38,778 nucleotides of DNA from Deltaproteobacteria bacterium (GTDB taxonomy: Bacteria > Desulfobacterota > Desulfobaccia > Desulfobaccales > 0-14-0-80-60-11): contig JAKAKP010000148.1 in assembly GCA_021813445.1 (NCBI GenBank), positions 1-38,778 on the forward strand, read 5' to 3'. How positions within the stretch are numbered: the stretch's first letter is position 1; each line of letters starts with the position of its first letter. The notes under the pieces were generated by a model that was given only the letters and a program-made list of their open reading frames with translations, did not search any database and was not told the DNA's origin. Shown here piece after piece: positions 3,037-12,956 of this stretch. Made by a program: the position numbers and the translations under genes.

Positions 3037-3408
3037 ATGTACGAAATCAAGATCATTACATCGTTTTCCGCGGCCCATCGCCTGGAAAACTTTTATGGCA
3101 AATGTGAAGCCCTGCACGGGCATAACTGGAAGGTGGAAGTCTTCCTGATGGGAGAAAAGCTGGACGAAACCGGGCTGCTGATGGATTTCGGCGCTATCAA
3201 GGCCCGGACCCGGGAGTTGCTGGAAGAGATCGACCATAAGTATCTGAATGAACTGTCCGCGTTCAGCCAGCAGAACCCGTCTTCGGAAAACCTTGCCACT
3301 TTCCTGTTCCAGCGCCTGTCTGCCGTCCTGAACCAGGACGGGGTGAAGGTCAGCCGGGTCAATGTTTGGGAATCGGATACCTCCTGCGCCTCATACTACC
3401 AGGACTGA
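3037..3408 (+). CDS. queD: 6-carboxy-5,6,7,8-tetrahydropterin synthase
   Basis: QueD turns 7,8-dihydroneopterin triphosphate into 6-carboxytetrahydropterin, the first dedicated step towards 7-deazaguanines (preQ0, queuosine). The 123-residue length is typical. Zinc ligands are H14 (FSAAHR), H27 and H29 (HGHN); the catalytic cysteine is C23 in the C-x3-HGH arrangement specific to QueD rather than eukaryotic PTPS. MDFG (49-52), DHKYLN (66-71), PSSENLA and WES (E112) are the remaining conserved blocks. queE, queC and folE are not adjacent. The product feeds 7-carboxy-7-deazaguanine synthesis, the substrate class of QueC-like enzymes, one of which (a QatC homologue) lies 4 kb away. Confidence 0.95.
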   Translation: MYEIKIITSFSAAHRLENFYGKCEALHGHNWKVEVFLMGEKLDETGLLMDFGAIKARTRELLEEIDHKYLNELSAFSQQNPSSENLATFLFQRLSAVLNQDGVKVSRVNVWESDTSCASYYQD

Positions 3409-6493: not shown

Positions 6494-7090
6494 ATGGTAA
6501 AAATCTTGGATCTCACGGGTCTGGCCTGCCCGTTGCCGGTGGTGCGCACCAAGGAGGCCCTGGAGGCTGGAGGCGCTAAGCACCTGATCGTCATGGTGGA
6601 CAACATCGCGGCCCGGGATAATGTCACCCGTTTTGCCGAGAGCCGGGGCTGCACGGTGGAAGTGGCCGCGGTCGAGGGCGGTTATCACTTGACCATCCAA
6701 CCCCCCGCGGGCGGGGCGGCGGTAAGTTGCGTTGCCCCCCTGTCGACTCCCGCGGCCCTGAGTACGGTGGTGGTCTTTGCCTCCGATCACATGGGCGAGG
6801 GCGACCCCCAACTGGGAGCCGTGCTCATGCGGGCCTTCTGCCAGACCCTGGTGCAGATGGAGGTGCCCCAAAAGATGCTCTTTTACAACCGGGGCGTCTA
6901 CCTTACCCTGAATGATTCCCCTGTGCTCGCGGAACTTACCGGGCTGGCGGACATGGGGGTGGAACTCCTGGTCTGCGGCACCTGCCTGGATTTCTATAAG
7001 GTCAAGGAGCGCCTGGCCGCAGGCAAGGTCTCCAACATGTTCGCCATCCTGGAGTCCCAGATGCAGGCGGGCCGGATCATCAAGCCGTAA
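6494..7090 (+). CDS. yedF: YedF-type sulfurtransferase-like selenium metabolism protein
   Basis: The 198-residue protein is a TusA domain (about 1-70) joined to a DsrE-like domain (about 88-198). The TusA half carries the persulfide-forming cysteine C12 in the CPxP motif (ACPLPVV). The DsrE half has C161 and C164 (VCGTC), characteristic of the YedF family found beside selenium-handling genes in selenium-using bacteria. It probably relays sulfur or selenium as a persulfide or selenide. Start ATG at 6494 follows AAAGGGAG at good spacing. It comes after the CNB gene by 46 bp containing overlapping dyads and is convergent with the QatC-like gene. No selD or selA is visible here. Confidence 0.88.
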   Translation: MVKILDLTGLACPLPVVRTKEALEAGGAKHLIVMVDNIAARDNVTRFAESRGCTVEVAAVEGGYHLTIQPPAGGAAVSCVAPLSTPAALSTVVVFASDHMGEGDPQLGAVLMRAFCQTLVQMEVPQKMLFYNRGVYLTLNDSPVLAELTGLADMGVELLVCGTCLDFYKVKERLAAGKVSNMFAILESQMQAGRIIKP

Positions 7091-7100
7091 AAGTATTAAA

Positions 7101-7131
7101 GGCGGGAGGCGCTACGCTTTCCCGCCCTACA
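7101..7131. repeat. Palindromic dispersed repeat between convergent yedF and the QatC-like gene
   Basis: GGCGGGAGGCGC and GCTTTCCCGCC form an imperfect hairpin. A second copy in opposite orientation is at 21721-21751, so this is a dispersed element. It overlaps the stop codon of the - strand gene and may help end transcription from both sides, though it lacks a T-run. Confidence 0.6.
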
Positions 7132-8494
7132 TATCCCGCCCCAGATAAGCCTTTAGAGGATTTGTCCCTTTATCCTGAAAAAACTGCCCGATCTCCCGGA
7201 AGCCGGAGGCCAGCAACTGCCTGGTCTCCCCATATCTTTGGGTGAAGCCCGGCCCCGGTTCCCCCCAATGAATGCGCCCCTCGATATCCCTGGGGGCTTC
7301 CTCCCAGGTCTTCAGGGCCAGGAGCAGGGCCCGGAGGTCCCGGCCCCGGACCCGGTGCCGCAGGGTTTCGGGAGCGGCCAGGACATCCAGGAGGTAATCC
7401 TCCCCCCGGTCCCAGCCCAGGCAGTGGAGCGCGGCCCGGCGCACCAGACAAGGGTAGCAGTAGCCGCATTCGCCCCCGGCCTGCCGCCGCCAACGTGAGG
7501 CCACGGGCCGGGCGCAGGAGCTGCTTAGCCGCGCCAGCTTGTACAAAAGGTCCCGGTTGCGGCAACTCTCCAGCAGTTCTCCCTTGGTCTGCTGCCGGTA
7601 GGGGTTGATCAGGGGGTGGGTAATGCCTGCGGCCCGCCACAGCCGGGTGAGCTGCTCCAGGAAGTAAGGATGAGTGGTGCGGGTGGTATAAGCGCCCAGG
7701 CGGTTCAAAGTCAACGGTGGATTGAGGCTGACCCAGCCGTTCTCGGGGATCAGCAAGGGGGTATCCGGCCCGAAAGCGGCGGCCGCGGTCAGGCCCAGGG
7801 CCAAAAAGAGCAGGGAGCGGCTCCGCAGGGTCAACTCCGGGGCCTCCGGGAACTGCACCCGCAAGCCCAGGTGCTGCAGCCGCTCCGGGCCGTAATGCCC
7901 GGCCAGGGCCCCGGCCAGGGTTTGCTGCAAGCCCGCCAACTGGCCATAGTCATGGTGGCTCACCAGCAGGAGTTTTTTGTCTGCCTCCAACTGGTCAATG
8001 GCTCCGGCCAGGGAATCCAGGCCCCCGGAGAATAAAACCACGGCCTGGGGCCGCCAGGGCTGCTCCCATTTGCCTGCGAACCCCAGGGCTATCTGGGCTT
8101 CCCTGGCCTTGATCTGCCAAAGGTCACCGGTAAGGAAGTTCAGGATCTGGCCGAATTGCGGGGCAAGCCGGGCCCAGGCGGGCGTCGCCGGGAGGTGCAG
8201 GACGATCTCCCGGGTCCAGGCATCCGGCCGGGAACTGCGGGGCAAGAGCTTATCCCCGGCCCAGACCCCCAGGGCGGCCAGGAGAAACGCGGCCACCGCC
8301 GGCGGCGGCGGAGAGGGCTGAACGAACATGGCCTCCAGATTGTGGTGCAGCGGATAACCCCGGCGGCCCGGTTCATCCAGATGGATAACGGCAGTCAGGC
8401 CCGGAGGTGGGCGGCGTTTTTCTCCCGGCGCCCGCAGGTAAAGATGGTGTGGCGTGTTCTCGTTGATCTGACCAGTCCGCCCGGAAACGTTCAA
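7127..8494 (-). CDS. QueC-like PP-loop ATPase resembling QatC of the Qat antiphage system
   Basis: A 455-residue protein, much longer than QueC (about 230). The C-terminal two thirds hold a PP-loop SGGLDS (156-161) and a QueC-type zinc site C327, C343, C346, C349 in ECGYCYPCLVRRAAL. The region ahead of it (FLTGDLW, 120-126) and blocks PENGW (250-254) and NPYRQQTKGEL are as I recall for QatC-like proteins rather than housekeeping QueC. QueC converts 7-carboxy-7-deazaguanine to preQ0 with ATP. The gene follows a QatB-like gene on the same strand after 191 bp of repeats. The TTG start at 8494 has no clear ribosome site, and a TGA lies just upstream in frame, so the N-terminus is uncertain. Alternative: a free-standing QueC paralogue. 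Confidence 0.8.
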   Translation of the reverse strand: MNVSGRTGQINENTPHHLYLRAPGEKRRPPPGLTAVIHLDEPGRRGYPLHHNLEAMFVQPSPPPPAVAAFLLAALGVWAGDKLLPRSSRPDAWTREIVLHLPATPAWARLAPQFGQILNFLTGDLWQIKAREAQIALGFAGKWEQPWRPQAVVLFSGGLDSLAGAIDQLEADKKLLLVSHHDYGQLAGLQQTLAGALAGHYGPERLQHLGLRVQFPEAPELTLRSRSLLFLALGLTAAAAFGPDTPLLIPENGWVSLNPPLTLNRLGAYTTRTTHPYFLEQLTRLWRAAGITHPLINPYRQQTKGELLESCRNRDLLYKLARLSSSCARPVASRWRRQAGGECGYCYPCLVRRAALHCLGWDRGEDYLLDVLAAPETLRHRVRGRDLRALLLALKTWEEAPRDIEGRIHWGEPGPGFTQRYGETRQLLASGFREIGQFFQDKGTNPLKAYLGRDM

Positions 8495-8518
8495 GGTTCA
8501 GGATGCGAAGCTCTAAAG

Positions 8519-8649
8519 TGTAGGGTGGGCACTGCCCACCGATTCCTTCCTTTTCGAAATGCACGGTAACCTATTAACATATTTCATAAATTTAAAAGCC
8601 CAAAAAAACAGAGTGTTATTGCGCAGGCTGGAAAGCCTGCGCCACCAGG
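8519..8649. repeat. Two dispersed palindromic repeats in the qatB-qatC gap
   Basis: TAGGGTGGGCA-CT-GCCCACC occupies 8519-8540 (sister at 12935-12956). GCGCAGGCTGG AAAGCCTGCGCCACCAGG occupies 8621-8649 (sisters near 10801, 10838 and 35653). Between them lies a short AT-rich stretch. No promoter stands out. Confidence 0.65.
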
Positions 8650-8685
8650 TTCTTTGCCGCCTGGTGAATTATCCGGGTCAGAGGA

Positions 8686-9315
8686 TTATTCCTGGAGGCG
8701 CGCCAGCATCTTTTCCAGGGTCAGGGTGACCCAGGTCCACCCCGCCAGGCCCCGCCACTTCTCGGGGGACCCCGGCGCCTCCGGCTCCTCCGGAGCCGCA
8801 TCGGCGATCCAGCCTTTAAGACCCGCCAAACCCTGCCGCCAGTGGCTGCAACTGCGGCTGGTCGCCTCCAGGGGCTCCCCCAGGTCCAGGGCCAGGCGCT
8901 GATAGAGCGACTCGGCCAGGAAACGGGTCACCACGGCGGCGGGGGCAGCATCTGCCGCACCCCCAAAATCCTGGAGGACCGCAGCCAGGGCCGACCGGGC
9001 CACTGCTCCCTCCAGGCTGCCGTCCGGCTCCAGGAGTCTGCCGGCCACAACCGGAGGCGCCTCCTCTTTCCGGGGCGCGGCCTGGGCGGCAAAGGCCCCC
9101 AGGGTTTGGGCCGCCTTCCGGGTCAGGCGAAAGGCCGCCAGCAGATCCGGGCTGCCGGACCCCGCGTCTTCCCCCAGGGCCGCGAGATACCGGGCCACCA
9201 CCTCCCGGGCTTCCAGGCCCACTCCCTCTGGGGGGGATAAGTACCGGGTGGCCGCGCCTTTGGCCCGCCGCCAGAACCAGGAGGTGGGCGCCCGCCGGGC
9301 GCTGGACGTGCCCAT
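8686..9315 (-). CDS. QatB-like protein of a Qat-type module
   Basis: The 209-residue protein begins MGTSSARR. I chose the ATG at 9315 because a strong AAGGAG stands 6 bases upstream; the frame extends further 5' but that part is repeat-derived. An N-terminal MGTS is the hallmark I associate with QatB. The rest is Ala-, Leu- and Glu-rich and mostly helical: ARYLAALGED near residue 45, a Pro/Ala linker near 87, then two helical segments ending EKMLARLQE. No catalytic motif, signal peptide or membrane helix is seen, as for QatB, whose biochemical role is not settled. It precedes the QatC-like gene on the same strand. The call rests on the N-terminus plus this neighbour; overall similarity was not measured. 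Confidence 0.65.
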   Translation of the reverse strand: MGTSSARRAPTSWFWRRAKGAATRYLSPPEGVGLEAREVVARYLAALGEDAGSGSPDLLAAFRLTRKAAQTLGAFAAQAAPRKEEAPPVVAGRLLEPDGSLEGAVARSALAAVLQDFGGAADAAPAAVVTRFLAESLYQRLALDLGEPLEATSRSCSHWRQGLAGLKGWIADAAPEEPEAPGSPEKWRGLAGWTWVTLTLEKMLARLQE

Positions 9316-9410: not shown

Positions 9411-10730
9411 CTAGGCCGCAGCCAAACGTTTCAAGTGGGTATAGCGTTCCCAGGAAAATTGGGGCCAGCAAGGAAAGAGGGAATTATTGTGGTAAAGGGG
9501 GTCGCTTTGGAGGTCGAAGCGGCAGGAGGCCACGGCCCGGGGCCACAACGCGGTGCCGGGAATGGGGGAGTAGAGGGCCAGGACCGGGGTGGCCCCCAAC
9601 TCTTTTACCCGGCGGATAGAGGTGATGACTTCTTCCTCGTCTTGCTCAGGCAGGCCGAGGAGGAGATAAACCCCGATCTCCTCCCGGCGGAACCCGGCTT
9701 CCTGGAGATAGGCCAGGGCCGCCTCCAGTTCCCCGGCCTGGAGCTTATGGTCCAGGCGGGCAGAGCCCAGCGCGGTGGTCTCCACCCCCAGGCGCAGGGT
9801 GGCGAATTGCGCCCGCTTCAGCCAGCCGGCCACCTCCTGGGTGATGTAGCGGGCATGGAGACCGTTGGGGGTGTGGCAACGGCAGACTAAACCCCGGCGG
9901 CTTAGCTCTTCTAAGATAACCAGCAGATGCCGGTCCGCGTCCAGCAGCAAGGCGTCGTCATAAAAGGCCACGTCTGTCAAGCCCAGGCGTTCCTGCCAGT
10001 ACGCAATTTCCTCCACCACCGCCAGGGGCCGGCGCCGCCGGAACTGCGGTTGGAGCTGGCGGGAGGCGCAGTAGTCGCAGTCCAAGGGACAGCCCCGGGA
10101 GGTCAGGAGGGGGAGGTAGGAAAGGTGCGACAGCAGGTGCAGGGCGGGGTAGGGCAGATCATCCAGTGATAGGGGCGGACCCTCGGGTCCGCCCTGAGGT
10201 GCGGGCAGTCCCAACGCGGCCAATTGGGGAAAAATGTCCTCCTCACCGGGGCCGCTGATGACCACGTCCGCGCCGCTGTGCTCCCGGGCGTGCTCCGGGC
10301 AGAGGCTGGCGTAAATGCCCCCCAGGATGACCGGAACGCCCGGGAACTGGACCCGGGCCAGGCGGATGGCCGCCTGCACCCCCGGGTACCAGTAGGTCAT
10401 CAGCGAGGTAACCAGGATGGCGTCCGGCCGGGGGACCGCAGTCAGGCGCGCCTGAAAATCGGCCTCGCTGCTGCCGTAGCGGCCGTAACGCCGGGGAACC
10501 CCCAGGAGCGCGGGCGGCGTCGGCAAGATCTCCTTGGGATACCTGCCGGTGCCGAAGGCGCCGTGGCGGGCGTGAGGGGTATCCAGGCAATCCAGGAAAT
10601 GGACCTTATAGCCCCGGCTGCTGAGAAAAGAGGCCAGGTACAGCAGGCCCAAAGGCCGGGCAAAGAAATCGTAGGCCGCGACGTCGTAAATCCAGGGGTT
10701 GATGAGGAGTAAAACCGGATTTGTTTCCAT
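9411..10730 (-). CDS. Radical SAM protein with N-terminal B12-binding domain
   Basis: The 439-residue protein has a B12-binding-like Rossmann domain (about 5-175: LLINPW, PLGLLYLASFL, LGGIYASLCPEHA) followed by a radical SAM barrel with C214, C218, C221 (GCPLDCDYC). The B12 domain has no DxHxxG motif, so cobalamin would bind base-off without a histidine ligand, as in most class B radical SAM methyltransferases. The barrel contains the usual later blocks (VAFYDDALL, LGVETT, YLLLGLPEQ). Start ATG at 10730 lacks a clear ribosome site. It lies upstream of the QatB-like gene on the same strand with 95 bp between, and could belong to the same transcript. Substrate unknown. Confidence 0.85.
   Translation of the reverse strand: METNPVLLLINPWIYDVAAYDFFARPLGLLYLASFLSSRGYKVHFLDCLDTPHARHGAFGTGRYPKEILPTPPALLGVPRRYGRYGSSEADFQARLTAVPRPDAILVTSLMTYWYPGVQAAIRLARVQFPGVPVILGGIYASLCPEHAREHSGADVVISGPGEEDIFPQLAALGLPAPQGGPEGPPLSLDDLPYPALHLLSHLSYLPLLTSRGCPLDCDYCASRQLQPQFRRRRPLAVVEEIAYWQERLGLTDVAFYDDALLLDADRHLLVILEELSRRGLVCRCHTPNGLHARYITQEVAGWLKRAQFATLRLGVETTALGSARLDHKLQAGELEAALAYLQEAGFRREEIGVYLLLGLPEQDEEEVITSIRRVKELGATPVLALYSPIPGTALWPRAVASCRFDLQSDPLYHNNSLFPCWPQFSWERYTHLKRLAAA
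10173..10194. repeat. Perfect 10-bp palindrome inside the radical SAM gene
   Basis: GGGCGGACCC-TC-GGGTCCGCCC is a perfect hairpin with a two-base loop. It lies in frame in codons for the Gly/Pro linker between the B12 and radical SAM domains, like a repeat unit that entered the gene without breaking it. Confidence 0.6.
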
Positions 10731-10800: not shown

Positions 10801-10952
10801 CTGGTGGCGCAGCCTTTCCAGGCTGCGTCGGAAAACTGCGCAGGCTAAGAAGCCTGCGCCACCAGGACCTCTCTTAAAAAAAACTTCCTGACCGGTGGGG
10901 TGCTTAGCAAATCTGGAGCACACCATTTCTGGCGTTTAAGACGCGCCCTACA
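10801..10952. repeat. Cluster of dispersed palindromic repeats between tilS and the radical SAM gene
   Basis: Two copies of the CTGGTGGCGCAGCC element face each other at 10801-10827 and 10838-10866; a TAGGGCGCGTCTT-type element (reverse) is at 10931-10952. The gap 10731-10964 contains no gene that I can see. Confidence 0.65.
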
Positions 10953-12837: not shown

Positions 12838-12956
12838 TCACGCAAAGACGCAAAGGCGCAAAGAAAGAGGCAGAAATATATATTCTAAAGGCAGTTCCAT
12901 AGCACCAAAATTGCTTTATAAACTAATGGCTTATTGTAGGGTGGGCACCGCCCACC
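12838..12956. repeat. Repeats between the response regulator and the kinase
   Basis: A CGCAAAGACGCAAAGGCGC tandem (12838-12866; inverse copy near 35021-35056) and a TAGGGTGGGCACCGCCCACC palindrome (12935-12956; sister at 8519). Confidence 0.6.

Follow-up and report, generated by a model that had tools for sequence, protein, structure and literature searches.

In the order Desulfobaccales, we found that the genes for QatB and QatC are retained without QatA or QatD as a two-gene core pair, whose conservation across genomes indicates that it is under selection throughout the order. QatBC is otherwise known solely from an exchangeable four-gene defence operon. Both proteins belong to known families; a vertically inherited, QatA/QatD-free QatBC serving as an order's core pair was not found in the open-access literature that we searched. 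We propose with moderate confidence that a stand-alone QatBC was fixed in the Desulfobaccales ancestor without QatA and QatD and has been inherited vertically since, that QatC modifies the N-terminus of QatB, and that a standing cellular role is the likeliest function of the pair.

The pair lies in a 38,778-nucleotide stretch of DNA, the whole of which is referred to here as the window and which comes from contig C15 of a draft genome of 4.18 Mb. The original prediction had read two adjacent minus-strand genes as resembling qatB and qatC. Their coordinates were confirmed, and both assignments were upheld, QatC by profile and QatB by family profile and fold:

7127-8494, minus strand: qatC, 455 aa counted from a TTG, a predicted QueC-like ATP-dependent enzyme, identified by profile and PDB matches
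8686-9315, minus strand: qatB, 209 aa from an ATG, a helical putative QatC substrate, identified by family profile and predicted fold

The larger protein matched the QatC model NF041925 at 316.9 bits (curated cut-off 280) over profile positions 14-397 of 398, the PADLOC QatC model (PDLC02214) at 3e-96, and the QatC chains 9zee_B and 9vlk_A in the PDB at 1.6e-60 and 6.9e-56, respectively. Its score with the housekeeping QueC model TIGR00364 was just 10.9 bits, and a genuine QueC is encoded separately on contig C139 of the same genome. The alternative that the larger protein is itself a housekeeping QueC was ruled out by these model scores. The two proteins have the PP-loop core and the zinc site in common, whereas QatC is 455 aa long here and QueC about 220 aa. 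With regard to the start of qatC, no ATG was located close to the conserved start region (HLYLRAPGEKRR), and the TTG at 8494 is merely the first listed start. We then located three functional motifs of QatC in the window:

8012-8029, minus strand: SGGLDS pyrophosphate-binding loop, residues 156-161, a sequence motif
7676-7684, minus strand: T-R-T motif of the QatC-specific substrate pocket, residues 271-273, equivalent to T278, R279 and T280 of P. aeruginosa
7448-7516, minus strand: zinc site formed by the four cysteines C327, C343, C346 and C349

The loop residues S156, G157, G158, D160 and S161 and the four zinc cysteines were invariant in the 20 sequences from the order and in 71 sequences from outside it, and both threonines of the T-R-T motif were likewise invariant inside the order and outside. 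Across the order, all 20 sequences retained SGGxDS, T-R-T, HP, K, the four zinc cysteines, and the N-terminal motifs D..R..WxR and DxW. The SGGxDS loop of QatC is essential, as are the pocket threonines in P. aeruginosa (PMC13279940), while the zinc cysteines and N-terminal motifs are among those listed in PMC13329287. One feature may differ from the P. aeruginosa QatB-QatC complex, in that the electrostatic interface patch appears not to be conserved in either protein here, in a region of uncertain alignment: the QatC columns equivalent to the QatB-binding basic patch R407/R410/R414 read T/E/D and vary within the order, although these columns align poorly and vary outside the order too. Tail to tail with qatC, at 6494-7090 of the window, lies a gene encoding a TusA domain fused to a DsrE-like domain.

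The identity of the smaller protein could not be established from the lone sequence, which scored 12.7 bits with NF041924, below the curated cut-off of 100, and gave no useful match in single-sequence searches of Pfam, PADLOC or PDB sequences; it was therefore tested with a family profile and with the fold. Of 15 relatives within the order, 14 matched NF041924 (best 4.3e-18), and a profile built from the alignment of these 15 relatives matched the PDB QatB chains 9vll_A and 9zee_A at 1.4e-12 and 2.3e-8. The profile search put forward in the original prediction thus succeeded directly for QatC and for the relatives of QatB, and failed for the single QatB sequence. The AlphaFold model of QatB (mean pLDDT 88) aligned with 9y01_A at a VIA Z of 16.2 over 175 residues, compared with Z 4.2 for the next PDB entry, and Foldseek placed QatB at ranks 1 and 2 with probability 1.00 and no other convincing PDB match. 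In addition, the order QatB profile matched the gene adjoining QatC in 65 of 66 outside loci, and in 4 more within the phylum. Taken together, the profile and model results identify the smaller gene as qatB. Its N-terminus reads MGTSSARRAP (MGTSSARRAPTSWFWRRAK) and contains the following element:

9304-9315, minus strand: MGTS N-terminus of QatB, in which Gly2 is the proposed modification acceptor

M1, G2, T3 and S4 were invariant in the 15 order members, as were R7, P10, W15, R16, A18 and K19, and the MGTS start was present in 67 of 70 QatB proteins outside the order. The MGTS start and helical character on which the original prediction had relied are borne out here by sequence and predicted fold, and MGTS, including Gly2, is essential in P. 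aeruginosa QatB (PMC13279940). The tail preceding the first helix spans about 12 residues here versus about 63 in P. aeruginosa, and short-tailed QatB proteins also occur within ordinary Qat operons (loci L126 and L157). In a further order genome (G014, L050:7375-7528), no MGTS was seen upstream of the conserved SARRAPTTW, and a repeat-like FSVFSF stretch was found instead; this apparent loss is possibly due to the assembly or to a different start.

We next considered the missing partners. The original prediction had noted that QatA and QatD were absent nearby, which was confirmed. For QatA the absence extends to the whole genome, in which no KAP NTPase (PF07693) and no QatA by profile search were detected; the sole TatD gene sits on another contig, C128. 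An effector encoded elsewhere, one of the possibilities first raised, is thereby disfavoured, with QatA absent from the genome and the lone TatD gene only nominally a candidate. Across the order, the QatA profile returned nothing beyond weak matches of 23-28 bits in four genomes of one genus, and neither QatA nor QatD was found near QatC in any of 14 order loci. Outside the order, a QatD-like gene was near QatC in 71 of 71 loci and QatA in 68 of 71, in a non-random sample made up of the nearest relatives from a genome scan plus five phylum matches; two of the three loci without QatA are cut by a contig end. Since this outside set contains the nearest QatC relatives, the two-gene state characterises the Desulfobaccales lineage. 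QatC without QatA is also known from elsewhere: a published survey found qatA beside only about one third of QatC-cluster genes (PMC13329287).

The pair may well function in the absence of QatA and QatD, a point that the original prediction had missed and that is suggested by analogy with QatBC in E. coli: the two proteins associate as a 1:1 complex that, without QatA and QatD, still fully protects this host from lambda (PMC13279940). This result also lends weight to a different explanation, namely a minimal Qat antiphage system that serves as a permanent, order-wide innate defence, with the mode of action of QatBC in E. coli. All residues required in the E. coli work are present in the order, as this explanation would expect. 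The closest outside relatives, on the other hand, retain QatA and QatD, and no defence genes neighbouring QatBC were detected by PADLOC in the window, the flanks of which gave only generic matches (ATPases and radical SAM proteins). On inspection, the remaining open reading frames of the window are housekeeping genes, including tilS, metK, CTP-synthase-like and ruvB-like genes and others.

The survey of related genomes that had been suggested revealed the feature that the original prediction missed altogether, that the two genes are core genes of the whole order. QatC was found in 20 of 22 near-complete Desulfobaccales genomes representing 11 of 11 genera, and QatB likewise in 20 of 22 and 11 of 11. 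In the remaining phylum, QatC was present in 10 of 374 sampled genomes (28 of 394 in the phylum sample minus 18 of 20 order genomes; Fisher p 4e-22 versus the order). Nearly all of the 29 order genomes are MAGs, so individual absences are unreliable; one order genome (G022) is a single contig of 3,282,536 bp. In G010, QatB, QatC and the neighbouring radical SAM gene are all absent, and we rejected co-loss in favour of an assembly gap as the probable cause because TilS is missing there too. In G023, the other near-complete genome without QatC, the contig stops 43 bases past the QatB match; there and in G004, a contig end falls where the third gene would be expected. G007 carries QatB, QatC and the radical SAM gene on separate contigs, with all three retained.

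Phylogenetic analysis pointed to vertical inheritance. The order formed one clade (support 100/99) in a tree built from 91 QatC proteins, whereas phyla were intermixed outside that clade. QatC distances within the order tracked those of rpoB (Mantel r 0.91, p 0.0001), and 8 of 15 splits were common to both trees, the remainder being mostly weak in QatC. Deep QatC splits in one family nevertheless disagree with rpoB, with G002, G004 and G021 grouping at 90/98, and some transfer of QatC inside the order is possible. Among the outside sequences, QatC was identical in the unrelated proteobacteria Luteimonas and Roseateles (L160 and L161), a sign of recent transfer of an ordinary Qat operon or of contamination.

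Within the genus, dN/dS was 0.17-0.25 for QatC and 0.26-0.43 for QatB, compared with 0.20-0.35 for TilS and 0.13-0.25 for a nearby kinase; the constraint on QatC is housekeeping-like. These values bear on the remnant proposed as one option in the original prediction, a Qat operon decaying after the loss of qatA and qatD. The missing partners, the uncertain start codon of qatC and the repeats inserted between the genes would fit such decay, whereas order-wide retention, purifying selection, and an intact active site and MGTS start refute it, and we regard it as highly improbable. The repeats in question lie in the intergenic gap:

8495-8685, no strand assigned: qatB-qatC gap of 191 bp, with two short repeat elements at 8520-8540 and 8622-8645

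Each element recurs once or twice elsewhere in the window, where zero matches are expected by chance. Overall, the window contains two short, partly palindromic families of intergenic repeats (8520-8540, 8622-8645, 10804-10862 and 12936-12956), both of which are represented between qatB and qatC.

The conservation of the pair shows selection and not which function is selected, and a fixed immune gene would look identical. Defence by a permanently retained QatBC accordingly remains a strong rival to a standing role, and the faster evolution of QatB relative to its neighbours is in line with it. Against this, QatC has a patchy distribution elsewhere, with phyla intermingled, while almost every near-complete genome of the order carries it and its inheritance there is vertical. 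Defence genes are not usually fixed by vertical descent throughout an order, and for this reason a standing cellular role is favoured over fixed immunity, which we consider a serious but lesser possibility.

We also evaluated the gene directly upstream of qatB, which the original prediction had suggested as a partner in a distinct system:

9411-10730, minus strand: B12-binding radical SAM gene (PF02310 and PF04055)

This gene is the usual neighbour of the pair and adjoins qatB-qatC in most other order genomes. The idea drawn from this arrangement is a three-gene pathway in which the B12 radical SAM enzyme would make or alter the group that QatC adds to QatB, or would modify QatB itself. The order radical SAM-qatB-qatC is kept in both families despite outer flanks that vary by family, the phylogenetic profiles of the three genes closely agree, and the radical SAM model resembles the B12-dependent methylases TsrM, MgmA, TokK and CysS as well as AprD4. 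However, of 375 near-complete phylum genomes, 190 carried radical SAM orthologues, in most cases with no QatC and beside other, unrelated genes, and outside the order no radical SAM gene of the same family was detected near QatBC. Some apparent separations within the order reflect contig breaks, as in G012 and G002, where the genes lie at contig ends. G007 and G021, by contrast, have a radical SAM gene that is truly unlinked from QatBC, and the joint absence from G010 probably reflects the assembly gap described above. In G021, which carries the radical SAM gene on a different contig, integrase-like open reading frames were observed upstream of QatBC (L062:50-475 and 570-1284). Order-wide linkage had suggested a dedicated QatBC partner, an idea weakened by this broad distribution over half of the phylum genomes; on these grounds we interpret the radical SAM gene as a conserved neighbour. 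The linkage is shared across the order but the gene itself occurs well beyond QatBC, and we judge the three-gene pathway to be unlikely.

Returning to the reading that we prefer, a stand-alone QatBC with a standing cellular role, a mechanism can be outlined on the model of what has been published for QatBC and Cap9. QatB would lose Met1, and its tail would enter the active site of QatC, which would spend ATP on activating a carboxylate (CDG, another 7-deazaguanine or a related molecule) and would then join the activated carboxylate to Gly2 of QatB. For none of the systems studied so far, P. aeruginosa QatC included, has this reaction been reconstituted (PMC13279940). A further gene in the window, identified by reading the sequence, bears on the supply of the carboxylate:

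3037-3408, strand not given: QueD-like gene

Together with the QueC on contig C139, this gene suggests that CDG may be made in the source bacterium. Judging from the distribution of the pair, its output would need neither the ATPase nor the nuclease, and the pair has most likely been domesticated for a standing cellular function rather than kept as an exchangeable defence cassette. Domestication may have turned QatBC into a housekeeping system for conjugating a nucleobase or other carboxylate to protein, in which QatB would be permanently modified at Gly2 and would act without ATPase, nuclease or infection; we advance this more specific form tentatively, as a prospect close to evenly balanced.

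Compared with the qatABCD systems of P. aeruginosa and E. coli (PMC13279940), the pair described here has homologous QatB and QatC in identical gene order, with the same MGTS start, SGGxDS loop, T-R-T pocket, zinc cysteines and QatB fold, and differs in occurring without QatA and QatD as vertically inherited core genes. It has its two-gene composition in common with the truncated QatBC constructs used in E. coli (PMC13279940), but those constructs were made in the laboratory by deleting genes from a four-gene operon, while the present pair is a natural, order-wide form. A more distant parallel is the deazaguanylation of CdnD by Cap9 in type IV CBASS. That system (PMC11996544; PMC13279940) resembles QatBC in its QueC-family enzyme, the N-terminal glycine of the partner and the MG[GT]S motif; it differs in that QatB is not a CD-NTase, that T-R-T in QatC replaces the CDG-reading Tyr/Asp pair, and that QatC adds N- and C-terminal extensions.

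The order-wide two-gene core form suggests that QatBC is a natural functional unit, and a natural two-gene form takes QatA and QatD out of the mechanistic question. The order also offers a native setting, for example cultured Desulfobacca, in which to seek a QatB adduct without phage. If the role is indeed housekeeping, a defence enzyme and its substrate would have been adopted into ordinary cell physiology, giving a core use to a reaction known only as antiphage.

Two further observations were made on QatC relatives outside the order. In Kibdelosporangium philippinense (L131:9119-11218), QatB and QatC were read as a single fused open reading frame adjoining QatA and QatD. Longer QatC-like proteins of about 640-709 aa were found at five loci (L086, L087, L088, L089 and L022); they match part of the QatC profile at about 186-208 bits, below the cut-off, and possibly represent another QueC-derived family.
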